NCBI GenBank assembly: GCA_902774335.1
Contig: CACYHW010000006.1
Span: forward strand, 1 to 64,000
DNA length: 64,000 bases
Source: an uncultured Bacteroidales bacterium
GTDB taxonomy: Bacteria > Bacteroidota > Bacteroidia > Bacteroidales > Bacteroidaceae
Direction of reading: 5' to 3'
The position numbers and the translations under genes are program-made. Below the pieces are notes generated by a model, which was not told the origin of the DNA, did no database searches, and worked only from the letters and a program-made list of their open reading frames with translations. Positions 784 through 59,599 of this stretch are shown here, in pieces. Numbering within the stretch: position 1 is the stretch's first letter; every line of letters starts with the position of its first letter.

Positions 784-815
784 GTGACGCAAAGAGAAAC
801 GACCCCAATGCGGCG
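784..815. repeat. Degenerate copy of the TGACGCAAAG palindrome (family A)
   Basis: The segment from 785 matches the 43-bp repeat unit at 1427-1543 but has GAGAAACGACCCCAATGCGG where the others have GGGAAACGACCCCTTTGCGG. The right arm is mutated, so the stem is imperfect. It starts three bases after the azlD stop. Confidence 0.75.
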
Positions 816-823
816 ATTTTTTA

Positions 824-831
824 TACATTTG
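824..831 (+). promoter_or_regulatory. Possible -7 box (TACATTTG) of the lipoprotein gene
   Basis: Matches the Bacteroidetes TAnnTTTG box 19 bases before the ATG at 851. No TTTG box is found at the expected upstream distance, so this is tentative. Confidence 0.4.
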
Positions 832-850
832 TGAATCAAACCAATCAGTT

Positions 851-1420
851 ATGAAAAAAGTCTTTCTATTCTTATCGGCCGCACTTGCGATGATGGCCAT
901 TGCCTCTTGTGATAAAGATGAAGAAAAAGAGCAGAACGAACCCGAAAAGAACGTTACTGTTGAGATTAACGCAGCCAACCTGCAGGGCACTTGGGAAGGT
1001 GCCGTAGAGCATGATTTCGGCCAGGGTTATCCCCAGAAATGGCGCCTTCAGATTGACGGAGAGAATTATACAAACTGGCATACCTACCAGACAGCCGGCA
1101 CCACAAAAGATGAAGTTCAGGGCCTTAAGACCGTGGGCAACAAGGAGAAGGGCACCTGGGCTTATGCCAATAAAAAACTGTCGTTCACTCCTACTGAGCA
1201 ATTTGCGTCATACTATCAGGTGATGAAACCGGATTATTCCCTCGGCGGGAATGTCTATTACGACTATAATGAGGAAACCATGGAGTCGACCCCCTGGTAT
1301 GTGACTCCCGAGTCACTTGTAAGGCCTTCGTTCGACTCCGAGTGGACTGTCATTTCGCTGACCAAGACTGCACTCACCGTCAAGATCAACATGGACACTT
1401 TCGTCCTGCAGAAAAAGTAA
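851..1420 (+). CDS. Small secreted lipoprotein of unknown function
   Basis: A 189-residue protein with a lipoprotein signal peptide (hydrophobic residues 3-17, lipobox ending IASC, Cys20) followed by an acidic, charged linker (DKDEEKEQNEPEK). The rest looks like a compact beta-rich domain with several Trp and Tyr residues (GTWEGAVEHD, GTWAYANKKLSF, ending TVKINMDTFVLQ), resembling lipocalin-like lipoproteins common in Bacteroidales. I do not recognise a named family. It is likely anchored in the outer membrane or facing the periplasm. The stop is followed within seven bases by a three-copy repeat array. Confidence 0.75.
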   Translation: MKKVFLFLSAALAMMAIASCDKDEEKEQNEPEKNVTVEINAANLQGTWEGAVEHDFGQGYPQKWRLQIDGENYTNWHTYQTAGTTKDEVQGLKTVGNKEKGTWAYANKKLSFTPTEQFASYYQVMKPDYSLGGNVYYDYNEETMESTPWYVTPESLVRPSFDSEWTVISLTKTALTVKINMDTFVLQKK

Positions 1421-1426
1421 GAAAAA

Positions 1427-1543
1427 TGACGCAAAGGGAAACGACCCCTTTGCGGCGAAATGAGAAAAGTGACGCAAAGGGAAACGACCCCTTTGCGGCG
1501 AAATGAGAAAAGTGACGCAAAGGGAAACGACCCCTTTGCGTCA
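1427..1543. repeat. Three tandem 43-bp units, each with a palindrome (family A)
   Basis: TGACGCAAAGGG begins at 1427, 1470 and 1513, an exact 43-base period. Each unit pairs TGACGCAAAGGG with CCCTTTGCG across a seven-base spacer (AAACGAC). Only the last unit has the full right arm (CCCTTTGCGTCA), giving a perfect 12-bp stem; the first two continue GGCGAAATGAGAAAAG into the next unit. The array starts seven bases after the lipoprotein stop and ends 49 bases before the efflux adaptor ATG. Confidence 0.95.
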
Positions 1544-1565
1544 TTTTTAAAAAATAGTAACTTTG
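1535..1565 (+). promoter_or_regulatory. Promoter of the RND efflux operon
   Basis: TTTG at 1535-1538, 19 bases, then TAACTTTG at 1558-1565, a good match to the Bacteroidetes consensus, 26 bases before the adaptor ATG. The TTTG box lies inside the right arm of the third 43-bp repeat. Confidence 0.75.
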
Positions 1566-1591
1566 CCTCCTATTAAAGAAACCTTATTCTT

Positions 1592-2671
1592 ATGAGCAAA
1601 ACAACCAAATGGGTGCTTATTGCCGTCATTGCAATTGGCGTGGCAATATGGGGAATTTACAGTCTGAAACCAAAAACCAACAAGGACATACCCGCAGGGC
1701 CGATGCCCACAGCCGGAGCGCCCATAGGACGCGGCGGCCAGACATTGCCGGTAAGTCACGTAATCATGCAGCCCACCGAACTTGTGGACGGCATCAACAT
1801 AAGCGGAAGCCTGATCCCCAACGAGGAGGTGAACCTGTCATTCGAGACATCGGGCAAGATCACCGACATATTCTTTGAGGAGGGCACCAAAGTCAAGAAA
1901 GGTCAGGTGCTGGCCAAAATCAACGACGCCCCCCTTCAGGCCCAGCTAAAAAAGTTAGAAGCCCAGTATCAGTCAACCGAGGACCGTCTGGCCCGCCAGA
2001 AAGCCCTTTACGAGAAGGAGGCCGTAAGTAAGGAGGCCTACCAGGAGGCCGAAGCCAACTTCAACAAACTCCAGGCCGATATCGAAGAGTGCAAGGCCAA
2101 GCTGGACCAGACCGAGCTGAAGGCCCCGTTTGACGGAATCATCGGCCTGCGTCAGGTAAGCGTAGGCGCCTACGCATCGCCCAGCACAGGCATTGCCACC
2201 CTGACCAACACCGAGAAACTCAAGGTGGAGTTCGCCATCCCCGAGCGTTACGCCGGAGTGCTGCAGAACGGAGCCAAACTGACTTTCACTGTGGAGGGCA
2301 GCGACGACATCCACAACGCCCAGGTCTACGCCACCAACTCAAAGGTGGATCAGGGCACCCGCACTTATCTGGTCCGCGCCATCTATGACAACAAGGACGG
2401 CAAGCTTGTTCCCGGCCGATACGTAAGCGTAAGCCTCAATACCCGCACATTCAAGAACACCCTTGCCGTACCCAGCGAGGCAATCATCTCCGAGATGGGC
2501 ATAGACAAGGTATTCCTGTACAAGAGCGGCCAGGCCATCCCACACGAGATCACCAAAGGCCTGCGCACAGACGCAGAGGTACAGGTGCTGAGCGGCCTCA
2601 AAGTAGGCGACACAGTCATAACCAGCGGCATCATGCAGCTGCGCACCGGAATGAGGGTTGAACTCAAATAA
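1592..2671 (+). CDS. RND efflux periplasmic adaptor (membrane fusion protein)
   Basis: A 359-residue HlyD/AcrA-type adaptor that bridges the inner-membrane pump and the outer-membrane channel. There is an N-terminal membrane anchor (residues 7-23), a lipoyl-like half (SFETSGKITDIFFEEGTKV, about 92-110), an alpha-helical hairpin rich in Gln/Glu/Lys (about 118-170), the second lipoyl half (LKAPFDGIIGLRQVSVGAY, about 176-195) and beta-barrel and membrane-proximal domains ending at GMRVELK. First gene of a three-gene operon, 12 bases before the pump gene. Its substrate cannot be read from sequence. Confidence 0.93.
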   Translation: MSKTTKWVLIAVIAIGVAIWGIYSLKPKTNKDIPAGPMPTAGAPIGRGGQTLPVSHVIMQPTELVDGINISGSLIPNEEVNLSFETSGKITDIFFEEGTKVKKGQVLAKINDAPLQAQLKKLEAQYQSTEDRLARQKALYEKEAVSKEAYQEAEANFNKLQADIEECKAKLDQTELKAPFDGIIGLRQVSVGAYASPSTGIATLTNTEKLKVEFAIPERYAGVLQNGAKLTFTVEGSDDIHNAQVYATNSKVDQGTRTYLVRAIYDNKDGKLVPGRYVSVSLNTRTFKNTLAVPSEAIISEMGIDKVFLYKSGQAIPHEITKGLRTDAEVQVLSGLKVGDTVITSGIMQLRTGMRVELK

Positions 2672-2683
2672 CCTGCCGCACCC

Positions 2684-5600
2684 ATGAACATATCAGAACT
2701 TAGCATACGCCGCCCGGTGCTGGCCACAGTGCTGGTGCTCATAATCATCCTGTTCGGCGTGGTGGGTTACACCAGTCTGGGCGTGCGCGAATACCCGTCG
2801 GTGGATAACCCCATCATATCGGTATCGGCCTCCTACCCCGGAGCCAACGCCGAAGTCATTGAAAATCAGATAACAGAGCCCCTGGAGCAGCAGATCAACG
2901 GTATCCCCGGCATCCGCTCGCTCTCATCGGTCAGCCAGTACGGAAGCAGCCGCATCACAGTAGAATTTGAGCTGTCAGTCGACCTCGAGACCGCCGCCAA
3001 CGACGTGCGTGACAAGGTATCGCGCGCCCAGCGAATGCTCCCCCGCGACTGCGATCCCCCCACAGTATCCAAGGCCGATGCCGACGCAATGCCAATCCTT
3101 ATGGTTGCCCTCCACTCCGATAAGCGCTCCCTTTTGGAACTGAGCGAGATTGCCGACCTTGTGGTAAAGGAGCAACTGCAGACCATCCAGGACGTTAGTT
3201 CCGTTATGATCTGGGGTGAAAAACGTTACTGCATGCGCCTGTGGCTGGACCCCGTAAAGATGTCCGGTTACGGCATCACCCCGATGGACGTAAAGAACGC
3301 CCTTGACAAGGAGAACGTGGAACTGCCCTCAGGTACCATTGAGGGTAACACCACCGAGCTTGAGATCCGTACCCTGGGCCAGATGCACACCACCCAGGAG
3401 TTCAACGACCTGGTAATCAAGCATGACGGTACCAAAGTGATACGTTTCAGCGACGTAGGTCAGGCCGAACTCAGCCCGCGCGACATAAAGAGTTACATGA
3501 AGATGAACGGCATCCCCATGGTGGGCGTGGCAGTCACCCCCCAGCCCGGTGCCAACCACATCAACATTGCCAACGCCGTCTATGACCGTATGAAACTGAT
3601 GGAGAAGGACCTTCCCGAGGACGTAGGTTACGAGTACGGCTTTGACAACACCCGTTTTATCCGCGCTTCAATCAACGAGGTAAAGACCACCCTCTACGAG
3701 GCATTCATACTGGTAATATTCATCATATTCCTGTTCCTGCGTGACTGGCGCGTGACCCTTATCCCCGTGCTGGTTATCCCGGTATCAATCATCGGCTCAT
3801 TCTTTGTAATGTACATGATGGGATTCAGTATCAACGTGCTCTCCATGCTTGCGGTGGTGCTGTCGGTAGGACTTGTGGTGGATGACGCCATCGTTATGAC
3901 CGAGAACATCTACAACCGTATAGAGAAAGGCATGACTCCGATGCAGGCCGGCATTGACGGCGCGCGAGAGATCCTGTTTGCCATCATATCCACCTCAATA
4001 ACACTGCTCTGCGTATTCGTACCCATTGTGTTCATGCAGGGCCAGACGGGCCGACTGTTCCGCGAATTCGCGTTCGTGATTGCAGGCGCCGTGGTGATTT
4101 CAACATTCACCGCCCTTACATTCACCCCCATGCTCTCCACCAAGATCCTGGTGCGCCGCGAAAAGAAAAACGCATTCTACGCATGGTCCGAGCCGTTCTT
4201 TGAGGGCCTTAACAAATACTACAGCAAGAGTCTGGATTTTATTCTGCGCAACCGCTGGATCACCATTGTCACAATGGTGCTGGCTCTTGGCGTAGCAGCA
4301 TGGATGTGGGTCAAAACCCCGTCCGAGATGGCTCCTATGGAGGACCGTTCACAGGTAACCGTCCGCACTCAGGGTCCCGAAGGCGTAACCTACGAGTACA
4401 TGCGTGACTACACCGAGCGCATAAACGACGTGGTCGATTCTATTATGCCCGATGCCAAATTCGTGACCGCCCGAGTATCAAGTGGAGGCGGTAACATACA
4501 GATTACCCTCAAGGACATAAACGAGCGCAGCTACTCGCAGATGGAGGTGTTTGAAAAACTGAGCGCCGCCGTACGCCGTGAGACCGATGCCCGCGCGTTC
4601 GTACAGCAGCAGTCATCATTCGCAGGCGGCCGAGGCGGTATGCCTGTCCGTTACGTACTGCAGGCCACCAACATTGAGAAACTGCAGGATGTGCTGCCCA
4701 AGTTCCTTGCCAAGGTAAACGACAACCCCGCCTTCCAGATGGCCGATGCCGACCTGAAGTTCTCCAAGCCCGAAGTCCGCATATCCATCAACCGTGAGAA
4801 AGCCAACCTGCTGGGAGTAAGCACCCGCGACATAGCCCAGACCCTGCAGTGGGGACTGAGCGGCCAGCGAATGGGTTATCTGTACATGAACGGAAAGCAG
4901 TATGACATTATAGGCGAGATTAACCGTCAGCAGCGTAACACCACCCAGGCGCTCAAATCTATCTACATGCGCAGCGGAAGCGGCAGCATGATACAGATGG
5001 AGAACCTTGTGGACCTTAAGGAGGATATCGCACCGCCCCGTCTGTACCGTTACAACCGATTCGTATCGGCCACCGTATCGGCCGGACTGGGTAAAGGCTA
5101 TACTCTGGGTCAGGCGCTTGACGAGATGGACAAGATTGCCAAGGAGACTCTGGATGATACTTTCCGCACCGCACTTACCGGCGAGTCCAAGGATTTCCGC
5201 GAGAGCTCCAACAGCCTGCTGTTTGCGTTCGGTCTGGCTCTGCTGCTTATCTACCTTATCCTGGCTGCCCAGTTTGAGAGTTTCAAGGATCCGCTCATTG
5301 TTATGATTACCGTGCCTCTGGCTGTGTTCGGCGCACTGGTATTCCTGCGCGGCGGTGGGCAGACAATGAATATTTTCAGTGAGATAGGTATTATCATGCT
5401 TATAGGACTTGTGGCCAAGAATGGTATCCTGATTGTGGAGTTTGCCAACCAGAAACAGGCGGCCGGCATTGACAAGTTCATTGCAATACGTGACGCATCC
5501 ATACAGCGCTTAAGACCTATCCTGATGACATCCACATCAACCATGCTGGGTCTGCTGCCGCTTATGTTCGCACACGGCGAAGGCAGCGCCGGACGTGTAG

Positions 5601-5719
5601 CTATGGGTACGGCTGTTGTTGGAGGAATGCTCATATCGACATTCTTTACTATGTACATTGTACCTTCGATCTACAGCTACATCTCAACCGACCGTAAAAC
5701 ACAAAAGAAAAAGGAATGA
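2684..5719 (+). CDS. RND-family efflux pump (AcrB/MexB-like inner-membrane permease)
   Basis: A 1011-residue proton-driven efflux permease. It has the repeated RND layout: a first helix near residues 12-30, a large periplasmic loop (SASYPGANAEVIENQITEP), helices from about 335 with the LSVGLVVDDAIVMTENI segment carrying the adjacent Asp pair expected for proton relay, then a second half with its own loop and a terminal helix bundle (LIGLVAKNGILIVEFANQ). Length is normal for the HAE1-type multidrug group rather than a clear heavy-metal pump. Its 3' end overlaps the channel gene by four bases (ATGA). Confidence 0.95.
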   Translation: MNISELSIRRPVLATVLVLIIILFGVVGYTSLGVREYPSVDNPIISVSASYPGANAEVIENQITEPLEQQINGIPGIRSLSSVSQYGSSRITVEFELSVDLETAANDVRDKVSRAQRMLPRDCDPPTVSKADADAMPILMVALHSDKRSLLELSEIADLVVKEQLQTIQDVSSVMIWGEKRYCMRLWLDPVKMSGYGITPMDVKNALDKENVELPSGTIEGNTTELEIRTLGQMHTTQEFNDLVIKHDGTKVIRFSDVGQAELSPRDIKSYMKMNGIPMVGVAVTPQPGANHINIANAVYDRMKLMEKDLPEDVGYEYGFDNTRFIRASINEVKTTLYEAFILVIFIIFLFLRDWRVTLIPVLVIPVSIIGSFFVMYMMGFSINVLSMLAVVLSVGLVVDDAIVMTENIYNRIEKGMTPMQAGIDGAREILFAIISTSITLLCVFVPIVFMQGQTGRLFREFAFVIAGAVVISTFTALTFTPMLSTKILVRREKKNAFYAWSEPFFEGLNKYYSKSLDFILRNRWITIVTMVLALGVAAWMWVKTPSEMAPMEDRSQVTVRTQGPEGVTYEYMRDYTERINDVVDSIMPDAKFVTARVSSGGGNIQITLKDINERSYSQMEVFEKLSAAVRRETDARAFVQQQSSFAGGRGGMPVRYVLQATNIEKLQDVLPKFLAKVNDNPAFQMADADLKFSKPEVRISINREKANLLGVSTRDIAQTLQWGLSGQRMGYLYMNGKQYDIIGEINRQQRNTTQALKSIYMRSGSGSMIQMENLVDLKEDIAPPRLYRYNRFVSATVSAGLGKGYTLGQALDEMDKIAKETLDDTFRTALTGESKDFRESSNSLLFAFGLALLLIYLILAAQFESFKDPLIVMITVPLAVFGALVFLRGGGQTMNIFSEIGIIMLIGLVAKNGILIVEFANQKQAAGIDKFIAIRDASIQRLRPILMTSTSTMLGLLPLMFAHGEGSAGRVAMGTAVVGGMLISTFFTMYIVPSIYSYISTDRKTQKKKE

Positions 5720-7035
5720 AACTCAACAGAATACTGTCAACAGCCGCAGCGCTTGCCCTTGGTTTGGGCGCGCAGGCACAGATAATGACGCTCAAGGACT
5801 GCCTTGAAAAGGGTATCAGCGAGAGCTTCCAGATAAAGCTCGTCAACATATCCCAGGAGAAGGCGGCCAACAACGACTCCTGGCTCTATGCAGGCGGTTC
5901 CCCCACCCTTAGCGCTACAGGCAGCTACTCGGGAACGCTCTCAAGCAACGACGCCACACTCAGGAGCGACGGCTCCACCACGTCCAACCGCAATGTGCTG
6001 GACCACACTCTCAGCGCACAGCTCCGTGCCGACTGGACCGTGTTTGACGGATTCAGCATACAGGCCACACGTGACCGTCTGGAGGAGTTGCACAACCAGG
6101 GCGAGATACAGACCCGCATAACCATCGAGGATTACATTGCCAACCTGACCACCGAGTACTACAACCTGGTACGTCAGACCATCCACCTAAAGAATCTGGA
6201 GTATGCCGCCTCCCTGTCCAAGGAGCGTCTGCGCATAAGCAGCGAGCGCTATGACATGGGTGGAAACTCACGTCTGGAGATGCAGCAGGCACAGGTATAT
6301 TTCAACTCGGACAGCGCCAAGAGCCTTAAGCAGCACGAGTCGGTGGCATCGGCCAACATCCGCATAAACCGCCTTATGTCCAACTGGGACCTGGGATCGG
6401 TTCATGTGGCAGCCGACACCGCCATCAACCTGATAACAGGTCTTGACTACGAATCCCTGCTTGAGGATATGATGGAAGTAAACGCTTCGCTTCTTAAGGC
6501 CGAGAGCAACCGTACCATTGCACAGCTTGACCGACGCGCAGTACAGTCACGCAACTATCCCTACCTGAAGCTCAACGCATCATACGGTCTGACACACAAC
6601 ATCTACGGCAACAACACCTACTCCGACCGTACCAACTGGGGTCCCTCGTTCGGTGCCACCATGGGTATCAACCTGATCTCAGGAAAGCAGCGTGTTCAGG
6701 AGCGTAACGCCCGTCTGGATGAACTCACGGCCGATATCACCATCGACCAGCTCAAGCTCCAGCTGCGCGCCAACCTGGATGATTTCTGGCAGGCCTATCA
6801 GAACAACCTGATGCTGCTGGAACTGCAGGAGCAGAACCTTAAGACCGCTCAGGAGACTATGGAGATAGCTCAGGAGCGTTACCTGCTGGGTAACTTGTCC
6901 GGACTTGAGATGCGTGAGGCCCAGAAATCACTCCTGGATGCCGAGGAGAGCCTGCTTCAGGCTCAATACGACACTAAGGTCTGCGAGATCTCCCTCCTCC
7001 AAATCTCCGGCCGCATCATGCAATATCTCGAATAA
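5716..7035 (+). CDS. TolC-family outer-membrane efflux channel
   Basis: A 439-residue outer-membrane factor with a signal peptide (residues 1-21, cleavage after AQA) and two copies of the long helical repeats typical of TolC: the first starts LKDCLEKGISESFQIKLVN, and the second half includes QLKLQLRANLDDFWQAY and AQERYLLGNLSGLEMREAQ. It completes the tripartite pump with the two preceding genes and overlaps the pump stop by four bases. The stop codon is followed at once by a seven-base tandem repeat array. Confidence 0.93.
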   Translation: MKLNRILSTAAALALGLGAQAQIMTLKDCLEKGISESFQIKLVNISQEKAANNDSWLYAGGSPTLSATGSYSGTLSSNDATLRSDGSTTSNRNVLDHTLSAQLRADWTVFDGFSIQATRDRLEELHNQGEIQTRITIEDYIANLTTEYYNLVRQTIHLKNLEYAASLSKERLRISSERYDMGGNSRLEMQQAQVYFNSDSAKSLKQHESVASANIRINRLMSNWDLGSVHVAADTAINLITGLDYESLLEDMMEVNASLLKAESNRTIAQLDRRAVQSRNYPYLKLNASYGLTHNIYGNNTYSDRTNWGPSFGATMGINLISGKQRVQERNARLDELTADITIDQLKLQLRANLDDFWQAYQNNLMLLELQEQNLKTAQETMEIAQERYLLGNLSGLEMREAQKSLLDAEESLLQAQYDTKVCEISLLQISGRIMQYLE

Positions 7036-7080
7036 AATTGAGAATTGAGAATTGAGAATTGAGAATTGAGGATTGAGGAT
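7036..7080. repeat. Heptamer tandem array (AATTGAG), directly after a stop codon
   Basis: Five perfect AATTGAG units from 7036, followed by GATTGAG and a partial unit. The array starts at the first base after the TolC-like gene's stop. Related arrays occur at 15084, 44820, 56679 and 56781. Confidence 0.95.
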
Positions 7081-7175: not shown

Positions 7176-7263
7176 GCAGTTGCAAAGTAAATTTCGGACA
7201 AAAAAATAGGGTGCTTTTGGCACCCTATTAAATTTGATTGTCCGAAATTTACTTTGCAGCTGC
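7176..7263. repeat. 25-bp inverted repeat spanning the histone-like gene's 3' end and terminator
   Basis: 7176-7200 and 7239-7263 are reverse complements with one mismatch. The right arm contains the last codons and stop of the minus-strand histone-like gene; the left arm repeats the same bases beyond the terminator. The terminator hairpin sits in the middle. Confidence 0.9.
7201..7229 (-). terminator. Rho-independent terminator of the histone-like gene
   Basis: Read on the minus strand: AATAGGGTGC, loop CAAAA, GCACCCTATT, then a T run. Stem 10 bp, perfect (7205-7214 with 7220-7229). Confidence 0.88.
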
Positions 7264-8705: not shown

Positions 8706-8706
8706 C

Positions 8707-13393: not shown

Positions 13394-14986
13394 TCATCTT
13401 CTGGATGAACCTGAACTGCGGGAGCTTGATGCACCTGAGCTGCGGCTGGGAGCACTGCTTGAGCTGCTGCGGCTGGGAGAGCTTACGCTACTGCTGCTAC
13501 GGCTGGGAGCGCTTACGCTACTGCTGCTGCGGCTGCTGCTTGAGCTTGAGCTTGAACTACGGCTTGTGCTGGCACTCGAGCTGCGGCTTGAGCTTGTGCT
13601 GGAGCTGCGGGTAGCGCTGCTGCTGGAACTGCTGCTGCGGCTTGAGCTTGAGGCTGCCGAGCTGCTGCGGCTTGAGCTTGCGCTTGAACTGCTGCGGGTT
13701 GAGCTTGAAGTTGCCGAGCTGCTGCGGCTGTTGTTAGTGGTGCTGCTGCGATCGCTGCTTACGCTGCGTGAAGTAGAAGCGCTGCTCTCGGTGCGGCTGG
13801 GACTGGTGCTGCTGGGACGGTCATATGTAGTACCGGACTGAACAGACCTTGAAGTGGTATTGCCTGATGAGCGTGAAGAGCTTGAGCGGCTTGAGTTAGC
13901 AGGAGCCACGTTCCTTACAGACGAGCTGTTGGTTGACTGTGTTGCACTGCGTGAAGCGTTTGTCGAAGCACTGCGTGATGCGCTTGTTGTAGCACTGCGT
14001 GAAGCATTTGTTGTAGTACTGCGTGATGCACTTGTCGTTGCGCTGCGTGAGGCCGATGTTGCAGTGGTGCTGCGTGATGCGGCGGTAGTTGCATTGCGGT
14101 CGGTTGCTCCGGCTGATCTGCCCGTTGCCCTTGATGCTGTCACACCCGATGTGCGGGTTGCGCTGCGGCTGGCAGTTGCCGATGCCGAGCGGGTGGCGTT
14201 GCGGCTCAGGTTCCTGTCCCATCCGCCGCCGTTAACCTTGCGGTTAGGCACGTAGTTGGAAACCCTGTTGTCAATCACGTATGTGGGACTGTAATAATAG
14301 GTATTGCGGTAGTAGGGACCATAGTACCTTGAAGTGTAGTGCCATGAATCATAATACCAGGGATCGTAATACCAGGAATCATAGTACCAGGGGTCATAGT
14401 ACCAGGGATCGTAATAGTATGTGTGTGAATAGTACCAGTAACGGTCATCAAAGAATCGGTCCCAGTAAACTATATCCCAGATGATGTCATCAACCAGGGT
14501 AAAGTACGGACGGCCGTTGTAACGGAAGCGGTACAGGCGGCGTGTCAGGTAATAATCCTCGACAGCGTCGTTGTAACCCTCGGCATATGAGCTGTTGTCG
14601 TCAACATATACATACTTGGTATTCCTGTCGTCATCGCGGACATAAACAGTGTCATGTATATATACGGTGGGAACGTCGTCCAGGATGGAGCCGTCCTCGT
14701 ACTGTATCTGACTGGTTCCGTATGTATAACGGCGGTTATACTCGTCGGGATCACGGTCAACGATGATCTGGGGGGTAGTGGTAACTACAGGCGCAGCCTT
14801 GGGGGGTACAGGTTCTATCTCGACAGGATCAACTGTAGAAGGTGTACGTGTAACCACTGCTGTGCTGGTAGTGGTCTTGGTACTTGTTGTCTTTCCGCTG
14901 TTACCGGATGAGTACAAGTCATTTCTCTGCGCACCGGCTGTCACTGTGACTGCCATCAATGCCATAAATAATACTGACTTTTTCAT
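13394..14986 (-). CDS. Secreted low-complexity protein: Tyr/Trp-rich block plus long Ser/Arg-rich tail
   Basis: About 530 residues starting MKKSVLFMALMAVTVTAGAQ, a clear signal peptide (cleavage after AGA). An upstream start would add 18 residues before it and is rejected. After a Thr/Pro linker comes an acidic, Tyr-rich region with heptapeptide-like repeats (YYDPWYYDPWYYDSWYYD, about residues 203-228). The last 270 or so residues are almost entirely Ser, Arg, Ala and Thr, first in ASRSATTS-like units and then in SSSRSSS runs. I recognise no catalytic domain. A cell-surface, nucleic-acid- or polyanion-binding role is possible but speculative. Codons within the repeats vary, so the protein repeat is not a recent DNA expansion. 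Confidence 0.8.
   Translation of the reverse strand: MKKSVLFMALMAVTVTAGAQRNDLYSSGNSGKTTSTKTTTSTAVVTRTPSTVDPVEIEPVPPKAAPVVTTTPQIIVDRDPDEYNRRYTYGTSQIQYEDGSILDDVPTVYIHDTVYVRDDDRNTKYVYVDDNSSYAEGYNDAVEDYYLTRRLYRFRYNGRPYFTLVDDIIWDIVYWDRFFDDRYWYYSHTYYYDPWYYDPWYYDSWYYDPWYYDSWHYTSRYYGPYYRNTYYYSPTYVIDNRVSNYVPNRKVNGGGWDRNLSRNATRSASATASRSATRTSGVTASRATGRSAGATDRNATTAASRSTTATSASRSATTSASRSTTTNASRSATTSASRSASTNASRSATQSTNSSSVRNVAPANSSRSSSSRSSGNTTSRSVQSGTTYDRPSSTSPSRTESSASTSRSVSSDRSSTTNNSRSSSATSSSTRSSSSASSSRSSSAASSSSRSSSSSSSATRSSSTSSSRSSSASTSRSSSSSSSSSRSSSSVSAPSRSSSSVSSPSRSSSSSAPSRSSGASSSRSSGSSRR
13397..14205 (-). repeat. Repeat-coding tract for the Ser/Arg-rich tail
   Basis: The plus strand is dominated by GCTGCGGCTTGAGCTT-like words, the reverse of AGC/CGC/TCA codons. 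The 3' half encodes SRSSSS runs, and the 5' half a loose ten-residue period based on SASRSATT. Confidence 0.85.
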
Positions 14987-15083
14987 AACCGTATCTTTTT
15001 GTGGTTTCTTTCTGATGCAAAAATAACATGGTAATATCACCCTGGGTGCGGAAAATTCCTAAAAGGGAAGGGGGATTTTCCTA

Positions 15084-15125
15084 TAATTGAGAATTCTCAA
15101 TTCTCACTTCTCAATTCTCAATTTA
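15084..15125. repeat. Heptamer repeat (TTGAGAA type) overlapping the GH25 stop
   Basis: On the minus strand there are two TTGAGAA units, a variant unit supplying the in-frame TGA, another TTGAGAA, then an inverted unit making the palindrome AATTGAGAATTCTCAATT (15085-15102). The last residues LRIEK of the upstream gene are encoded inside it. Confidence 0.92.
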
Positions 15126-39835: not shown

Positions 39836-39868
39836 CAAAGGTACTGAAATTTCTCGAGAGGTGACAAA
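39836..39868 (-). promoter_or_regulatory. ndk promoter, -33 box inside a palindromic repeat
   Basis: On the minus strand: TTTG (39865-39868), 21 bases, TACCTTTG (39836-39843). The TTTG box lies in the terminal CCCCTTTGTCACC of the family B inverted repeat at 39858-39925. Confidence 0.75.
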
Positions 39869-39925
39869 GGGGACGGTTCCGTTTGGCTCGTGTGAGCCAA
39901 ACGGAACCGTCCCCTTTGTCACCTC
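39858..39925. repeat. Family B inverted repeat, 32-bp perfect arms
   Basis: 39858-39889 and 39894-39925 are perfect reverse complements separated by GTGT. The arm contains GTGACAAAGGGGACGGTTCC and ends GTTTGGCTC. It ends one base before the stop codon of the minus-strand PARG-like gene. Related copies are at 43282 and 59525. Confidence 0.95.
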
Positions 39926-43281: not shown

Positions 43282-43369
43282 AGCCAATGGGGACGGTTCC
43301 GTTTGGCCCCTTAGTGCAGATAGTTTACTAAGTGCAAATCAGGGCCAAACGGAACCGTCCCCAATGGCT
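43282..43369. repeat. Family B inverted repeat, 28-bp arms with one mismatch
   Basis: 43282-43309 and 43342-43369 are reverse complements except one base (AGCCAATGG vs AGCCATTGG). The central 32 bases contain TTAGTGCA and TAAGTGCA. Its right end overlaps the first base of the flotillin-like gene's stop codon. Confidence 0.93.
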
Positions 43370-44819: not shown

Positions 44820-44911
44820 CAATTTCTCAATTCTCCGCTCGGCCCGAAGGGACGCTTTCACAAAGCGAAGCGACTGAAAGAATTCTCAATTCTCAATTTT
44901 CAATTCTCAAT
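44820..44911. repeat. Heptamer repeats flanking a mini-hairpin cluster
   Basis: TTCTCAA-type units occur at both ends (from 44820 and 44883-44911) around CCC/GAA/GGG and CGCTTT/CAC/AAAGCG hairpins, again with three-base loops. The right end abuts the stop codon of the NfeD-like gene. Confidence 0.88.
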
Positions 44912-45486
44912 TACTTAACCAGCAGCAAGTCATCACCCAAAACCTCCACAATCTCCACCTGACCGCCGGTAGCGATCTCGGTATCACTGTCGGTAACCGC
45001 ATCAATCTCATGTACCGAGCCCTTGACGCTCACCTGCACCTTACCGCGACCGGAACGTGCAGCCGGGATGCGCAGATATACATCGGCCCTGAGACCTACT
45101 GCCTCTTTCATCTTAAAGCTGCCGTCATGCGAAAGCTTCATGACCTGACGGAACATAAATACGAACGCAAGCACAAACAACAGACCTACCGCGATGGCTA
45201 CAATCTGCAGAAGGAAACGTTTCTCGATGGAATCAAACAGCAATACTCCAGCCCATCCATAGCCGAGCAGGAAATTGATCAGGTTGCGGAATGAGAACAC
45301 TCCGCTCAGTTCACCGTCTTCCACGGAATCAACCGCTCCGTCCATAGGCCCTGCGTCGATATCGGCATCGGTTCCCAGTCCAATGAAAGTCATGATGGTC
45401 TGGATGATGAAAACCAACGATGCGCAACATGCGATAACCCAGAAAAACCTCTGTAACGGCTCAAGCGAGTTAAAAAAATTCATCAT
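44911..45486 (-). CDS. NfeD-like membrane protein (OB-fold partner of flotillin)
   Basis: About 191 residues starting MMNFFNSLEPLQRFFWVI, with a membrane helix at 8-26, a second pair at about 56-100, and a beta-rich C-terminal OB-like domain (GLRADVYLRIPAARSGRGKV, VEIVEVLGDDLLLVK). NfeD-type proteins pair with flotillins. An upstream Met run starts at 45516 but the Met at 45486 (or the adjacent 45483) is closer to the membrane helix. The gene ends directly in the TTGAGAA repeat. Confidence 0.8.
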   Translation of the reverse strand: MMNFFNSLEPLQRFFWVIACCASLVFIIQTIMTFIGLGTDADIDAGPMDGAVDSVEDGELSGVFSFRNLINFLLGYGWAGVLLFDSIEKRFLLQIVAIAVGLLFVLAFVFMFRQVMKLSHDGSFKMKEAVGLRADVYLRIPAARSGRGKVQVSVKGSVHEIDAVTDSDTEIATGGQVEIVEVLGDDLLLVK

Positions 45487-45519
45487 AGCAAAACAAGTAT
45501 TGAAATGGTTAAACATACT

Positions 45520-54342: not shown

Positions 54343-54344
54343 GT

Positions 54345-55214
54345 ATGAAAAGAAAACTATCAGTCATAATCGCATTCCTTACAGTTCTGACATCCTTGTT
54401 TTCATGCCAGGATGACTTTATGCCGCAGCAGGAGGAATCGGTCGTAGTAGAGGGATGGATTGATGCCGGCGGATTTCCCATAGTAATCCTGACACGTTCA
54501 CTTCCGCTCAGACTCAGGGATGATGCCATTCCTCTGGAGCAACTTCAGGATTATGTGATAAGATGGGCAAAGGTGACCTTGAGCGACGGAGACACCACTG
54601 TGGTCCTGACAGGGGGCAAAGACAACGACTACTTTCCCCCGTTTATCTATACTACCGGCCAGATGAGGGGCATGAGCGGAAAGACCTACACTCTTAAGGT
54701 TGAGACCGACGGCCAGGTACTGACAGCTGCCACCACCATTCCTGACAATCCGCCGATTATAGACAGCATCGTGTGCAGGAGCATATCGGGCGATACCGCC
54801 GTATCAGGTATCGACGTATACATACGGAACCGGACCGACTGCCACTGCTACTACAAATCGTTCTATATGGACGACATTGAGAGCGGTCAATTCATATCAT
54901 CATACCTGGGCGTTGTGGACGGTTATGTTGCCGACACTACGTTTGTAATGCAGATAATGCGCGGAACAACGGTTCAGGAACTTGAAATGACCGGCTTTTA
55001 TTTCCCCAACGGTTCCGATGTGGTGATCAAGGTAGCCACTATGGACAGCGTAAGTTTCAGCATCTGGCAGGGATACGAGGACAAGACGCGTCTGGGGTAC
55101 TCGTATGTCACATCATCCACCCGCAATATACCAACCAACATAAACGGCGGTATAGGTTACTGGTGCGGATACAACGCCGTGAACACAAAACGAACAGTTC
55201 GTTTTGTGTTGTAA
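54345..55214 (+). CDS. DUF4249-type lipoprotein partner of the TonB receptor
   Basis: A 289-residue lipoprotein (signal then LFSC, Cys21). VVEGWIDAGGFPIVILTRSL at the mature N-terminus and the GKTYTLKVETDGQVLTAATT strand are the DUF4249 pattern. Its last residues, NTKRTVRFVL and TAA, are encoded by a 29-base palindrome (55182-55210) found again downstream. It likely sits on the outer surface next to the receptor. Confidence 0.87.
   Translation: MKRKLSVIIAFLTVLTSLFSCQDDFMPQQEESVVVEGWIDAGGFPIVILTRSLPLRLRDDAIPLEQLQDYVIRWAKVTLSDGDTTVVLTGGKDNDYFPPFIYTTGQMRGMSGKTYTLKVETDGQVLTAATTIPDNPPIIDSIVCRSISGDTAVSGIDVYIRNRTDCHCYYKSFYMDDIESGQFISSYLGVVDGYVADTTFVMQIMRGTTVQELEMTGFYFPNGSDVVIKVATMDSVSFSIWQGYEDKTRLGYSYVTSSTRNIPTNINGGIGYWCGYNAVNTKRTVRFVL
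55182..55210. repeat. Family C palindrome, first copy (inside the DUF4249 3' end)
   Basis: AACACAAAACGAAC / A / GTTCGTTTTGTGTT, a perfect 14-bp stem with a one-base centre. It encodes the C-terminal residues of the lipoprotein. Confidence 0.95.
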
Positions 55215-55245
55215 GAGTATTTGCCCTTTGCAGCAGTTTTCCAAC

Positions 55246-55274
55246 AACACAAAACGAACTGTTCGTTTTGTGTT
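55246..55274. repeat. Family C palindrome, second copy (upstream of proC)
   Basis: Identical to the first copy except the centre base (T). The centres are 64 bases apart. It overlaps the area where the -33 box of proC would lie (with TAACTTCG at 55285-55292 as a possible -7 box). Confidence 0.92.
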
Positions 55275-55314
55275 CGAAAATAACTAACTTCGCGCAATCA
55301 AATTAGTTCCACAT

Positions 55315-56103
55315 ATGAAGATCACGATTATCGGCGCCGGAAACATGGGAGGCGCTATCGCTCGCGGATTTGCCGCAAAGAATGTGTTCGCAGCCAAGGA
55401 TATCACATGCTGCGACCGTAGTGACGCCACACTTGAAGCCCTCAAGAAGGATGTACCGGGCATCGGCACATCAAAGGACAACGCAAAGGCTGTAAAGGGT
55501 GCCGACATTGTTCTGTTTGCCGTTAAGCCGTGGATCATGCCCTCTGCCGTCGAGGAGGTAAAGGAGGCTCTGGACTACAACAAGCAGTTCATCATTTCAA
55601 TCGCTGCCGGCGTAGGTCTTGACAAGCTGGCCGAGCTCTTTGACAAGGGCGGTCAGAAACCCCAGATTGCATATCTGATCCCCAACATAGCTGTCGAGGT
55701 TGGTGCAGGCGTATTCTTCTACTGCTCAAACACCGCCAGCAAGGAGAATCTGGACCTTATCCAGAAGCTGTTCGGCCAGGTTGGTTTCGCCAAGCAGGTT
55801 GAAGAGAAGCAGATGACCGCAGGTACAGCTCTTGCATCATGCGGAATAGCATATGTGTTCCGATATATCCGCGCCAACGTTGAGGGCGGCGTCGAGATGG
55901 GCTTCTACCCCAAGGACGCTCAGGAGATCGTGCTGGGCACCATCAAGGGCGCTGTCGAGCTGCTCCTGGCTCACGGCTCACACCCCGAGCAGGAGGTCGA
56001 TAAGGTAACAACCCCCGGCGGCATCACCATCAAGGGTCTGAACGCCATGGAAGAGGCCGGATTCACCAACGCAGTCATCAAGGGACTTAAGGCCGGCAAG
56101 TAA
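55315..56103 (+). CDS. proC: Pyrroline-5-carboxylate reductase
   Basis: A 262-residue enzyme for the last step of proline synthesis. The dinucleotide fold starts ITIIGAGNMGGAIARGFAAK; conserved parts are DIVLFAVKPWIM, YLIPNIAVEVGAGV and the helix TAGTALASCGIAYVFRYIRA plus TTPGGITIKGLNAMEEAGF near the C-terminus. It overlaps the esterase gene by one base (TAATG). Confidence 0.95.
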   Translation: MKITIIGAGNMGGAIARGFAAKNVFAAKDITCCDRSDATLEALKKDVPGIGTSKDNAKAVKGADIVLFAVKPWIMPSAVEEVKEALDYNKQFIISIAAGVGLDKLAELFDKGGQKPQIAYLIPNIAVEVGAGVFFYCSNTASKENLDLIQKLFGQVGFAKQVEEKQMTAGTALASCGIAYVFRYIRANVEGGVEMGFYPKDAQEIVLGTIKGAVELLLAHGSHPEQEVDKVTTPGGITIKGLNAMEEAGFTNAVIKGLKAGK

Positions 56104-56684
56104 TGAAGCTGGTCTATTTCCACGGTTTCATGTCATCGGGAGCCAGCGGCACGGTTGAGAGCCTGCGCCATATGCTTCCCGAGCTTGAGGTCGTAGCGCC
56201 CGATATACCCGTCGACCCCGCCGAGGCTCTGCCATATTTACGCCAGTACGTCGATGAGCAGAAGCCCGATATAATAGTAGGCACATCCATGGGAGCCATG
56301 TACGCCCAGCAGATGTTCGGCTTCAAAAAGATATGCGTGAACCCGTCGTTCAACATGTCCACCATGTCCAAGGTCATGAAGGCCAACACCACATATCCTT
56401 TCCAGAACGGACGCAAGGACGGTGCCAAGACCTTCAAGATTACGGGTCAGATCATCAAGAACTTCAACATGATGGAGCGTCAGCAGTTCAAGGGCATCAC
56501 CGATTTTGACCGCGAGAACACTTACGGCCTCTTCGGCAACCACGACACCACCGTAAACTGCTACGATCTGTTCAAGAAGCACTACCCCAACGCCCAGCGC
56601 TTTGAAGGAGAGCACCGCCTCAACGACAAATCCCTCCGCACCGCCGTCGTTCCCCTGATCAAGCAGATTTTGGGTATTAATTGA
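56103..56684 (+). CDS. YqiA/YcfP-type alpha/beta-hydrolase (esterase)
   Basis: A 193-residue hydrolase starting LVYFHGFMSSGASGTVESLR. The nucleophile elbow is IIVGTSMGAMYAQQ (GTSMG, Ser), the acid and His are in GLFGNHDTTVNCYDL and RFEGEHRLNDKSLR. The substrate is an ester or thioester. The stop codon is part of the TTGAGAA repeat that begins there. Confidence 0.88.
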   Translation: MKLVYFHGFMSSGASGTVESLRHMLPELEVVAPDIPVDPAEALPYLRQYVDEQKPDIIVGTSMGAMYAQQMFGFKKICVNPSFNMSTMSKVMKANTTYPFQNGRKDGAKTFKITGQIIKNFNMMERQQFKGITDFDRENTYGLFGNHDTTVNCYDLFKKHYPNAQRFEGEHRLNDKSLRTAVVPLIKQILGIN

Positions 56685-56711
56685 GAATTGAGAATTGAAA
56701 ATTGAGAATTA
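56679..56711. repeat. Heptamer array at the esterase stop
   Basis: AATTGAG units from 56679 provide the TGA stop of the esterase gene (56682-56684). An oppositely oriented array lies at 56781-56811, so the two can pair around the palindrome between them. Confidence 0.92.
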
Positions 56712-56712
56712 A

Positions 56713-56780
56713 TACGCAGAACCTGCGTAAATGAGCCCGCGACATAGAAAAGGCTTGCAAAAATTTGCAAGCCTTTTCTA
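56713..56780. terminator. Bidirectional terminator between convergent genes
   Basis: A small hairpin TACGCAG/AAC/CTGCGTA (56713-56729), then a long perfect palindrome with TAGAAAAGGCTTGCAAA at 56745-56761 pairing with 56764-56780. It lies between two heptamer arrays and serves both genes. Confidence 0.88.
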
Positions 56781-56811
56781 ATTCTCAATTCTCAATTTTA
56801 AATTCTCAATT
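56781..56811. repeat. Heptamer array at the acyl-CoA synthetase stop
   Basis: TTCTCAA-type units; on the minus strand the stop TAA is followed at once by TTGAGAATT. Confidence 0.92.
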
Positions 56812-58495
56812 ACTTATAGAGTCCGCGGCGGATACTGCGCTTAGGAGTCTTCTCAAAAGGCTCAGTGCGGATCTCAAGCTTGGAAACCTGAGAGTATGCA
56901 GGCAGTAACTCGTTCACATGCTTGCGTCCATCCTCCAGATTGGCCAGAACCTGCTGCTCATTAAGACCAGCAGCCTTACCAGCCTCATAATCCGGATAAA
57001 CCAGGGCAACCAGCTTACGCTCACGCTCCACAACCAGAACCTCCGATACCATAGGCAGGTTGTTGTACATATCCTCAATTTCCTCAGGATAGATATTCTG
57101 ACCCGAAGGACCAAGAATCATATTCTTGCTGCGGCCCTTGATATAGATGTAACCCTGCTTGTCGATAGTACCCAGGTCACCGGTGTGGAACCAGCCCTCG
57201 GGATCAATCACGTCGCGTGTAGCGTTGGGGTTCTTGTAGTAACCCAGCATCACGTTGTCACCCCTTACAAGCAGCTCACCAACATTACCCGGAGCATCGC
57301 TGAACACCTCGACAGGGCATCCGGGAACTGCGATACCGCATGAGCCGGCCTTGTACTTCTCCCAGTCAACATAAGAGATCAGGGGAGCGCACTCAGTGCT
57401 GCCGTAACCAACGGTGTACGGGAAGTGAATCTTGCGCAGAATCTTCTCAACCTCAACATTCAGGGCAGCACCTCCTACGATAAGGCAATCCATCTCGCCG
57501 CCGAATGCATCGATAATCTTGGAGCGGATCTTTCCGCCGATTATACGGTTTACACCGGGAATAGCCATGAGAACCTTCATGAGAGGCTTCTCCATAACCG
57601 GCTGTATCTTCTGCTTGATAACCTTCTCGATTACCAGAGGTACGGTGATGATAAGCTTAGGCTTCTCCTCGGCAAAAGCGTCGAACAGGATCTTGGGTGA
57701 AGGCATCTTGCCCAGATAGCAGACGCTGGCACCCAGCAGAAGCTCAAACATAAGCTGGAAGGCCAGACCGAACATATGAGCCATAGGAAGTATGGAAACC
57801 ACTGTCTCACCCTTTGTAAGAGGAAGAACGCCGCATGCGAACTTAAGGTTAACCAGCATAGCGCGGTAAGGAACCATAACGCCCTTGGGATCACCCGTTG
57901 TGCCCGATGTGTAGTTCAGGACAGCCAGGTCGTTGGTATCCTTTTCGGCCTGATACTTGATATCATCCTTGCTGAAACCATTGGGGTACTTCTTGTCGAA
58001 GCACTCATCAAGAGTCTCCATTGCCTTGGTCAGCTCCTCTGAACGGCTGAACTGCAGTGACATATCGTTCATCAGGATCATACCCAGGATATCGGGCATC
58101 TCGGTGGGAACCATTCCGGCCATCACCACGTCACCCACCATGAGCAGCTTAGACTCGGAGTGGTTGACCAGCATATGTACGTTTCCGGGTTTGAAATCAT
58201 TGAGGATAGGCACGGGAATGGCGCCGTATGTGTAAACGCCAAAGAATGAGATACCCCATGCCAGGCAGTTCTTTCCGCAAAGAGCCACCTTGTCGCCAGG
58301 CTTGACGCCAGCGTTCTCAAGTAAGATATGTACGCGTGCAATGCGCTTGGCCAGTTCCGCATAGGTAATTCTCTCTCCGCGGAAATCAGAAAGAGCAATA
58401 TTGTCCCAATGTCTGCGGAAGCTGTCTTCGTACATCTTGATTACGCTTTTGGCCTCCATGTCACAATCCGGAGTTCTGTAGATTAATCTTGCCAT
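56810..58495 (-). CDS. AMP-binding long-chain acyl-CoA synthetase-like enzyme
   Basis: About 561 residues. It activates fatty acids to acyl-AMP and acyl-CoA. The ATP motif is LNYTSGTTGDPKGVMV, followed by GYGSTECAPLISYV and GWFHTGDLGTIDKQGYIYIK, and the late lysine region FEKTPKRSIRRGLYK ends the protein. Compared with E. coli FadD it has a shortened C-terminal region. The ATG at 58495 is used; a longer upstream frame is rejected. Confidence 0.92.
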   Translation of the reverse strand: MARLIYRTPDCDMEAKSVIKMYEDSFRRHWDNIALSDFRGERITYAELAKRIARVHILLENAGVKPGDKVALCGKNCLAWGISFFGVYTYGAIPVPILNDFKPGNVHMLVNHSESKLLMVGDVVMAGMVPTEMPDILGMILMNDMSLQFSRSEELTKAMETLDECFDKKYPNGFSKDDIKYQAEKDTNDLAVLNYTSGTTGDPKGVMVPYRAMLVNLKFACGVLPLTKGETVVSILPMAHMFGLAFQLMFELLLGASVCYLGKMPSPKILFDAFAEEKPKLIITVPLVIEKVIKQKIQPVMEKPLMKVLMAIPGVNRIIGGKIRSKIIDAFGGEMDCLIVGGAALNVEVEKILRKIHFPYTVGYGSTECAPLISYVDWEKYKAGSCGIAVPGCPVEVFSDAPGNVGELLVRGDNVMLGYYKNPNATRDVIDPEGWFHTGDLGTIDKQGYIYIKGRSKNMILGPSGQNIYPEEIEDMYNNLPMVSEVLVVERERKLVALVYPDYEAGKAAGLNEQQVLANLEDGRKHVNELLPAYSQVSKLEIRTEPFEKTPKRSIRRGLYK

Positions 58496-58530
58496 AACTG
58501 TTAATTTGAAGTGTGTTTTGATTCTGGTCG

Positions 58531-58538
58531 CAAAGGTA
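58531..58538 (-). promoter_or_regulatory. -7 box of the acyl-CoA synthetase gene
   Basis: TACCTTTG on the minus strand about 36 bases before the ATG; the -33 box is weak. Confidence 0.45.
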
Positions 58539-58702
58539 CCCCGATATTGCCCAACACGGCCACAATAATCCCTTTTTGGGGTATCCGATACAAAGGATGT
58601 GGCGAATTGCCGCCATTTGGTACACGGCAATTCACCCCACATTACTGATTTGGGGGTTATTATAAAAAAGCTTATCTTCGTGGCACATTTGATTTTAGCA
58701 GT

Positions 58703-59515
58703 ATGAACAAGATTCCGGACTACATGTTCTCCCGTAAGTTCCTGATGTGGACTGTGGTGTTCATCACCGCATTCTCCATCGTGTTCCTGCTGCTCTATTC
58801 GCCGTTTTCATCGACCTACTGGTTCACCCTTAAAAGAGGATACAAGTTCCTGGGAACCGTATCGCTCTACACAATATCGGTAATGTTCCTGTTCTCGAGC
58901 AAACTGGTCCTGATGGACCTGAGCAAGAGATACACCATAAACGGACTGGGGCTCATACTCTTTTCGCTATCCGAGGTACTGATAGTATCGGTCTTCTATG
59001 TAGCCATAACCCTGATGGTAAACCAGAACGGCATGAGCGCAATGGATATCTTCCCCAAGGCCCTCATGTGCATATTCCTGATTCTGGTCATACCTTATGT
59101 AATAGCATATCTGTACGGATACGCGCGCGCCTACAAGCTTCAGGCAGCGGCCGATGCCAAGCCGCAGGGAACCCTTGTGGTATCCATCCACGACAACAAC
59201 GGCAAGATAAGGCTCTCGCTTAGGATAATGGATATCCTGTATGCCGTATCGGAAGACAACTACGTAAAGATATTCTACGAGCAGGACGGTGTGGTCAGGA
59301 ACTGCATGATACGCACCACCGCCAAGAACATTGAGGACGATCTGGAGGGTTATATAACCCGATGCCACCGCTCCTACCTCATCAATATCGCAAAGGTCAG
59401 GTTCTTCAACAATGACCGCGACAATCTGTATGTGATTCTGGATCAGGACGGCATCAATCCCATCCCTGTTTCACGCTCCTACCGTGACGCTATCGCCTCG
59501 CTCCTCTCGAAGTGA
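58703..59515 (+). CDS. LytTR-domain regulator with membrane helices
   Basis: A 270-residue protein: four membrane helices (about 12-33, 46-66, 79-104, 112-133) and a C-terminal LytTR DNA-binding domain (about 165-268) with LSLRIMDILYAVSEDNYVKI, CMIRTTAKNIEDDL, YITRCHRSYLINIAKVRFF and NPIPVSRSYRDAI. It likely links a membrane signal to transcription without a receiver domain. The gene ends nine bases before a family B palindrome. Confidence 0.9.
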   Translation: MNKIPDYMFSRKFLMWTVVFITAFSIVFLLLYSPFSSTYWFTLKRGYKFLGTVSLYTISVMFLFSSKLVLMDLSKRYTINGLGLILFSLSEVLIVSVFYVAITLMVNQNGMSAMDIFPKALMCIFLILVIPYVIAYLYGYARAYKLQAAADAKPQGTLVVSIHDNNGKIRLSLRIMDILYAVSEDNYVKIFYEQDGVVRNCMIRTTAKNIEDDLEGYITRCHRSYLINIAKVRFFNNDRDNLYVILDQDGINPIPVSRSYRDAIASLLSK

Positions 59516-59524
59516 GGAGGTGGA

Positions 59525-59599
59525 AAAGGTGACAAAGGGGACGGTTCTGTTTGGCTCGACTAGCGCGAGCCAAACAGAACCGTCCCCTTTGTCACCTTT
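59525..59599. repeat. Family B inverted repeat, 34-bp perfect arms
   Basis: 59525-59558 and 59566-59599 are perfect reverse complements, loop ACTAGCG. The arm contains GTGACAAAGGGGACGGTTCT, the same as the 39858 copy except C to T at one symmetric position. Nine bases after the LytTR gene stop. Confidence 0.95.

Follow-up and report, generated by a model that had tools for sequence, protein, structure and literature searches.

The stretch of DNA analysed here (the window) comprises 64,000 nucleotides of the genome of an uncultured Bacteroidales bacterium (GenBank assembly GCA_902774335.1, contig CACYHW010000006.1, positions 1 to 64,000, or G000:C6:1-64000; 2,348,358 bp in 29 contigs, 87% complete), and carries short repeats that lie at or very close to the stop codons of its genes. 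A reading of the sequence alone had listed twelve copies or arrays of these repeats, assigned them to four unrelated families, and proposed from their location a targeted insertion mechanism, selection on transcript 3' ends, or duplication in the course of 3'-end processing. All twelve are present at the places given, with distances to stops correct to within a few nucleotides (Table 1). Three of the families are dispersed: in the assembly the unit of the F2 arrays (AATTGAGAATTGAG) has 126 matches, F1 has 25 at up to 3 mismatches, and F3 has 115 half-sites at up to 2 mismatches, against 0 (reversed control), 0 and 1 in the respective controls. F4 is a single inverted pair at one locus, and a search of the assembly at up to 3 mismatches found no copy beyond the two facing each other across 31 nt. 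The families are thus unrelated only in part: two consist of transposase-linked palindromes (F1 and F3), one is a heptamer-array element (F2), and one is no family at all. Genes were called with a custom open reading frame (ORF)/hexamer caller, not Prodigal, which overlooked some short genes (azlD was added in a second pass). Gene names in the window are putative, in part those of the sequence-only reading, and the protein families that were tested are those for which a search is named below. An Rfam scan of the window returned one tRNA and nothing else.

Table 1. Repeats in the window and their position relative to neighbouring genes
Feature	Position	Strand	Relation to genes and content
F1 copy	784..815 (core 786-812)	+	core 4 nt past TAA of ORF 479-781
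F1 tandem, three 43-bp copies	1420..1543	+	first core 7 nt past TAA of ORF 851-1420
F2 array (AATTGAG)n	7036..7077	+	directly 3' of TAA of ORF 5716-7035
F2 array	15085..15123	-	gives stop and last residues (KLRIEK-stop) of - strand ORF ending 15104
F3 palindrome, arm 32, loop 4	39858..39925	.	1 nt after - strand stop (39927)
F3-type palindrome (GCCATTGGGGACGGTTCC...)	43282..43369	.	overlaps - strand stop at 43369
F2 array	44881..44912	-	after TAA of - strand ORF 44911-45516
F4 inverted pair, arms 32, loop 31	55181..55275	.	left arm codes for C-terminus of ORF 54345-55214
F2 left array	56679..56710	+	provides TGA of ORF 56103-56684 (C-terminus GIN-stop)
F2 interior	56711..56779	.	TACGCAGAACCTGCGTA subterminal motif, then terminator-like hairpin (AAAAGGCTTGCAAAAATTTGCAAGCCTTTT)
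F2 right array, inverted	56780..56811	-	abuts TAA of convergent ORF 56810-58642
F3 palindrome, arm 34, loop 7	59525..59599	.	9 nt after ORF 58703-59515; sister-species slot empty or with other palindromes

Distances to stops were measured on three contigs of this genome (664 kb, 28% of the 2.35 Mb assembly), an F2 or F3 repeat being counted as stop-adjacent if it lay between -15 and +10 nt of a stop. Stop-adjacent repeats make up 17 of 21 F3 palindromes and 21 of 28 F2 clusters, where uniform intergenic placement expects 2.2 and 3.4, respectively. The non-random placement at gene 3' ends claimed by the sequence-only reading hence stands for these two families. It does not extend to F1, of which 9 of 25 copies assembly-wide are stop-adjacent and 4 lie in divergent gaps (3 of the 25 loci, one of them divergent, have no usable stop). 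With F4 no family and F1 not mainly at stops, the idea of four independent stop-targeted families was rejected. Under the stricter control of uniform placement inside the repeat's own gap, the expectation rises to 11.4 of 21 for F3 and 16.2 of 27 for F2. The large excess over uniform intergenic placement shrinks to a modest one, which means that much of the stop effect is a matter of which gap is occupied, and less of where in the gap the repeat lies. Sample palindromes with arms of at least 20 that lie in tandem-gene gaps with room are nearer the stop in 10 of 13 cases. Twenty named relatives carry the acyl-CoA synthetase-like gene (ORF 56810-58642; 69-93% identity). They are metagenome-assembled genomes under the labels Bacteroidales, Bacteroidaceae or Prevotellaceae, in many cases with isolate names that refer to the ruminant gut, plus Candidatus Colenecus caballi. 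At the loci of 20 relatives 9 of 16 palindromes are stop-adjacent against 5.4 expected within the gap (p = 0.01), and just 2 of 6 in tandem-gene settings are nearer the stop.

Occupied and empty sites, the comparison that the sequence-only reading had pointed to, are found between species of the genus, for which 37 genomes (our own and 36 others) were searched. The junction after the gene ending in ...DFLYPD (C3:196987 in our genome) is readable in 30 genomes and repeat-free in 16, of which 11 keep the same next gene at a gap of 2-20 nt. F2-type arrays, with between one and about six units, occupy this junction in eight genomes (G000, G018, G048, G009, G015, G016, G032 and, as a variant, G045), GGGGACGG palindromes in three (G044, G047, G005), inverted TTGGCR arrays in two (G043, G012), and another inverted repeat in G007. 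As the empty gaps measure 2-20 nt, any tolerated insertion there abuts a stop, and adjacency is largely forced. Empty gaps are short at junctions S1 and S2 too, whereas those at S3 (32-109 nt) and S5 (73-87 nt) are long enough that adjacency is not forced. Downstream of ORF 58703-59515, a slot separates the stop from a conserved terminator-like segment; G046, G009, G048, G016 and G013 have nothing or almost nothing in it, and differing palindromes occupy it in our genome, G011, G005, G012, G044, G002 and G008. The slot of the F2 array at 44881..44912 contains such an array in 2 of the 14 genomes compared, ours included; the other 12 were scored repeat-free, and one of these, G012, has the GGAGCAGTGAGAG module without an array. 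Over 14 orthologous junctions the occupied cells crowd few slots, with two or more families at 3 junctions against 7.4 by shuffling (P = 0.001), and divergent gaps are occupied in 0 of 53 cells. A separate proposal, that slots collect more families than chance, was rejected (3 of 14 junctions have at least three families where permutation gives a mean of 3.2, a non-significant difference). In the window, a non-coding stretch at 59600-59800 (CACAAAAAAAAATGAATTCACTCGCGTGAACTCA... CCTAATTACTAACCTAATTACTAACC...) is well conserved 3' of gene 58703-59515 in most sister species read, and has no Rfam match.

The repeats are also frequently found at stops because they make them. Owing to the period of 7, TGA runs through all three frames of an AATTGAG array, yielding the endings N-stop, IEN-stop and KLRIEN-stop, and in the sample 12 of the 26 sense stop-adjacent F2 arrays make the stop. 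These 26 divide into N-stop (3), IEN-stop (6) and KLRIEN-stop-type endings (3), arrays whose first AA overlaps a TAA (8), and arrays with the stop -1 to 4 nt off (6); eight F2 arrays begin exactly as TAA followed by TTGAG. Unrelated proteins come to bear a common IEN tail in this manner. For instance, the gene at C1:24378 of our genome ends FLIEN-stop, while most of its orthologues stop one to a few residues past FL or FI. At loci of G005 and G016, 15 of 25 distinct F2 arrays count as stop-adjacent, 3 of these in antisense orientation, and six have IEN-stop tails.

The palindromes F1 and F3, along with a further one, F5, are known in kind, being of the type that accompanies the tyrosine transposases associated with repetitive extragenic palindromic (REP) sequences or with terminal inverted repeats (TIRs), named RAYT and TIRYT, respectively. 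RAYT-like genes (PF01797) are present in 23 of the 37 genomes, and 30 loci were read. At 16 of the 28 with a readable 3' end, loci without any inverted repeat included, an inverted repeat of at least 11 pairs overlaps the transposase stop or begins within 3 nt of it, as against 23 of 180 ordinary genes of our own sample. Matching of the flanks by eye recovered F1 at L150 and L162, F3 at L152, F3-like palindromes at L142, L147 and L165, and F5 at L118, which is in our genome. The cognate transposases of F1 and F3 were found in sister species only, the single PF01797 gene found in our own genome being that of F5. Four RAYT-like proteins score above the Pfam cut-off for PF01797. TIRYT/TIR systems with a GGGGWSAS motif are described by Di Nocera et al. 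(2013, PMC3733652); F5 (GGGGTCAG) agrees with this motif, F3 (GGGGACGG) has one mismatch and F1 does not match. Many copies of the F1, F3 and F5 types have a TGA or TAG triplet near their tips, and the GTAG tag is missing from the arm ends of the F1 and F3 copies inspected. In some F3 copies of our genome (e.g. C1:97203-97282 and C1:52148-52209) nested TGACA(A)..TGACAAAG ends are seen, which suggests insertion of F3 beside or into older F3 ends.

The sequence-only reading had assumed that ordinary REPs scatter through intergenic space. This is contradicted by the genomes plotted in Di Nocera et al. (2013, PMC3733652), in which most convergent REPs are separated from either 3' end by less than 20 bp and the stop is often supplied by a REP terminus, and passages of Nunvar et al. 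(2010, PMC2817692) place REPs right after or very near rayt stop codons. As far as these sources describe REP/REPIN and TIR repeats (REPtrons and TIRtrons), the palindromes of the window resemble them in being dispersed, often as inverted pairs, in convergent and tandem gaps near 3' ends, in sometimes supplying the stop, and in flanking genes for IS200-like Y1 transposases, in many cases just after the rayt stop or close by it. They differ in that the arms pair to their tips, lack the GTAG tag and often carry TGA or TAG at the tips, and in that one orthologous slot within one genus holds different repeat lineages. Among the F2 elements, two long ones (in G016 and G013) enclose an ORF of 117-121 aa belonging to PF05635, the four-helix-bundle family of the 23S-rRNA intervening-sequence protein (IVP); hmmscan gave 88-97 bits for the four proteins tested, and one of them matched PDB 2rld (E 2.4e-36). 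REP/REPIN-RAYT systems are reportedly also the subject of a 2011 paper by Bertels and Rainey.

A search for PF05635 genes found eight within the genus, spread over 6 of the 37 genomes; the 14 control genomes gave none. Short tandem arrays lie at the edges of all eight, of heptamers in six and of hexamers in two. The heptamer is AATTGAG at L287, L288 and L289, AATTGAA at L286 and L291 (the upstream end of L291 is off the contig), and AATTGAC at L290. At 6 of the 7 readable loci the upstream array begins 0-1 nt after the stop of the upstream gene or provides it, and at L290 the distance is 9 nt. Some interior modules are common to these elements and to the arrays of our genome. A 33-nt stretch of L286 (TCTCTCCTCTCACTGCTCCAAAAATTTTCAATT) recurs at two places on our contig C1 with 97-100% identity, one of which is next to an F2 array. 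A further stretch of this element, 53 nt long, recurs at two F2 sites on C3 with 89-91% identity, and three or four places of our genome carry a module of L286 in all. The TACGCAGAACCTGCGTA motif in the interior of the window element is found in two PF05635-carrying elements as well, and the motif ACCTGCG occurs at 9 of 28 F2 clusters compared with 227 of 5600 random windows. Given the common unit and these modules, the F2 arrays of the window look like gene-less derivatives of a PF05635 element, which is our best reading of the sequences, not proof. The inverted TTGGCR arrays in the DFLYPD slot of G012 and G043 likewise look like a gene-less hexamer type.

The partnership of PF05635 genes with period-7 arrays recurs in other phyla. 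A tblastn search with two PF05635 proteins listed 63 plasmid matches (25 and 38 records, some in both), mostly from cyanobacteria. We analysed 26 of these loci, selected for taxonomic spread and in each case without sight of the flanks of the locus itself, although the outcome for the first 16 was already known when the last 10 were picked; the unannotated gene ends of L293 and L306 were set from the match. At 21 of the 26 loci (14 of the first 16 and 7 of the next 10) a period-7 array is found no more than 200 nt from the gene, as opposed to 37 of 1040 random windows of the same records (3.6%), and any other period from 4 to 12 is seen at 0-1 of the 26. The loci span Cyanobacteria, Bacteroidota, Spirochaetota and Chloroflexota, with units that vary by locus (TAATTCG, GTCGGAA, ACAGGTG, AAAAGCT, ATTTTAG and others), and 9 of the 13 two-sided loci have one unit common to both sides in inverted orientation. 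Among 19 loci with a same-strand upstream gene, reading by eye showed the upstream stop to fall in the array in about 8 cases and to be at most 5 nt away from it in about 3 others. Several of the genes have defence-locus neighbours, in the orders cas6-IVP-cas4 (L302, L304) and drmD-IVP-MmeI (L301). In IMG/VR the protein of L295 recovered three loci, of which two are flanked by TAATTCG arrays on either side and the third has none, and a scan with the L287 protein recovered no relatives. No reverse transcriptase is named beside PF05635 genes in the plasmid annotation tables, which are incomplete, and no dedicated search for one was made. The PF05635 genes flanked by cas6 and cas4 (L302:4001-4360 and L304:3983-4351) lie in type I-D CRISPR loci of two cyanobacteria and have unlike heptamer units; either the slot was used more than once, or the site was inherited and its unit has turned over.

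Several known systems are comparable to the F2 elements. The 23S rRNA intervening sequences are inverted-repeat elements, and their IVP is of the same protein family as that of the F2 element; in contrast to them, F2 elements lie between protein genes, are bounded by short tandem arrays and have many gene-less copies. Heterocystous cyanobacteria possess heptanucleotide short tandemly repeated repetitive (STRR) sequences, which are period-7 tandem arrays with several unit sequences and for which we know of no gene partner. Direct repeats of the heptamer TAACTGA are reported from Beggiatoaceae, Cyanobacteria and some Bacteroidetes (PMC4679880). They share with F2 the period of 7, a mostly intergenic location, stops in three frames and some overlap with upstream stops, and differ in lying mostly just upstream of starts in that genome and in having inverted sets in 1 of 170 cases; the terms four helix, intervening and S23 are absent from the main text of that paper. 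PF05635 proteins also resemble, by the description in PMC10053308, Avd, the accessory protein of diversity-generating retroelements. No published description of an association of PF05635 with tandem or heptamer repeats was found by title or abstract in a library that excludes subscription papers and preprints.

Taken together, these results partly support the original observation: the repeats are real and are at gene 3' ends, and stop codons need not be their target. With a probability of about 0.7, the stop-adjacent repeats are explained by two kinds of element that share a safe landing place. F3, F1 and F5 would be terminal-repeat palindromes of RAYT/TIRYT (IS200-like Y1) transposases that lack the gene. 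The F2 arrays would be gene-less derivatives of an apparently undescribed element in which short tandem arrays, mostly with units of 7 bp and often mutually inverted, enclose a PF05635 gene. Both probably persist where they do least harm, that is in the last codons of a gene or in the short gap after it, and an insertion that clips a C-terminus would still terminate the protein by virtue of the stop triplets in the ends of the element. Selection rather than targeting would then set the location, and the combination of a tiny gap with a stop-carrying repeat would make the repeats look aimed at stops. F2-type elements may be mobile; their slots are empty in some species and occupied in others. 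Spread of the heptamer-ended elements may be the work of the IVP protein, acting by itself or together with enzymes of the host. The likeness of this protein to Avd, along with the inverted arrays, suggests that it binds a hairpin in single-stranded DNA or RNA.

A number of results weigh against this explanation or parts of it. Sample palindromes with arms of at least 20 are stop-adjacent in 21 of 35 cases against a within-gap expectation of 13.8 (p = 1.5e-5), and the stops next to F3 are TGA in 18 of 26 cases compared with 197 of 446 (p = 0.015). Some insertion preference for stops remains compatible with this excess and bias; TGA as the insertion target itself was rejected, the difference in these counts lending it weak support. 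On NCBIfam NF047646 the four RAYT-like proteins reach 53-63 bits, under the cut-off of 80. Our own genome, at 87% completeness, has no PF05635 match. AATTGAG has 126 matches in it and 127 in G005, yet of these two genomes only G005 has a PF05635 gene; the source gene in our genome may have been lost or may lie in the missing 13%. Two elements of the genus (L284 and L285) are hexameric, with a TTTGGC unit whose inverted copy encodes the SQGQSQGQ tail of the protein, and ACCTGCG is present in a minority only (9 of 28 F2 clusters and 2 of 8 PF05635 elements). Among the plasmid loci, 4 of the 13 that are two-sided lack a common inverted unit, and arrays are missing at 5 of 26 (Monoglobus, Azospirillum, Stanieria, Tolypothrix and Picosynechococcus). 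No signature of excision, transposition or a target site was seen. Finally, read inward, a stop triplet occurs in 15 of 29 distinct heptamer units where shuffled units give 14.8. Selection for stop-containing units was accordingly rejected, and the all-frame stop follows from the period of 7 and the AATTGAG unit and is no demonstrated adaptation. The outward count of 8 has no fair control, as the reverse complement differs in composition.

Active targeting, in which a transposase or repair process recognises stops, transcript ends or a TGA/TAATT motif and inserts there, is in our view unlikely. It would account for the excess over within-gap placement, for the enrichment of TGA at F3 ends and the arrays that begin with TAA and TTGAG, and for the reuse of few slots and the avoidance of divergent gaps. 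Tolerance predicts the same concentration just as well, with both tight operon junctions and promoters closed to insertion. Empty-site gaps are frequently short, and F1 is stop-adjacent in a minority of copies and enters divergent gaps. The short empty gaps and the self-made stops thus remove the need for targeting, although some preference may be left over. Functional retention of the repeats as terminators, stabilisers of mRNA 3' ends or ribosome-pausing devices is quite unlikely. It draws on the long perfect hairpins directly 3' of stops and on several convergent F3 copies that span the gap from stop to stop; in E. coli, REPs near stops have an effect on translation. Against it, many species keep a terminator-like hairpin beside the insert at junctions S5 and S6, and the orthologous slots are empty in many sister species. 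The turnover of families between species argues further against a conserved role of any one sequence. In G048 the palindrome alone occupies the gap at S5. The palindromes were rejected as sole terminators, as terminator-like hairpins persist beside many of them.

For the heptamer arrays in particular, it is improbable that they are plain slippage microsatellites with an incidental link to PF05635. The variety of units between loci (29 distinct ones) and the change in array length between species at the DFLYPD slot are what slippage would produce. It does not account for the restriction to period 7, seen at 21 of the 26 plasmid loci with PF05635 as opposed to 3.6% of the windows taken from these records, for the short arrays at all eight genus genes, or for the inverted pairing. 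Nor does it explain the non-array modules common to different copies and the presence of AATTGAG at dozens of dispersed sites.

On a broader and more tentative view, to which we give somewhat less than even odds, period-7 arrays of bacteria (AATTGAG, and perhaps STRRs and TAACTGA) might be the ends or remnants of one widespread class of transposase-less mobile elements that have a single gene, the one for the PF05635/Avd-like four-helix bundle. In such a class the protein would recognise its own heptamer, units would be lineage-specific, gene-less copies would spread in trans, and stop-codon junctions would be colonised from Bacteroidota to Cyanobacteria, Spirochaetota and Chloroflexota. PF05635 proteins occur widely and have solved structures, but to our knowledge no role is established for them outside the Avd-like proteins, and we know of no agreed origin for heptamer arrays. 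If the two are partners, these two open questions become one testable system, in which the four-helix bundle may bind or build the array and DNA might be mobile without a transposase.

Three further features were observed in and near the window. An imperfect inverted repeat with arms of about 26-32 (7176-7263), absent from the list of the sequence-only reading, lies in a 664-nt gap at 140 nt from a stop. A minus-strand ORF at 13394-15040 contains coding tandem repeats of 15-48 bp (13439-14433). Outside the window, at G000:C6:72642-72781, lies an inverted pair of octamer arrays, (GTTTCAGT)n/(ACTGAAAC)n, an inverted-array element of another period.

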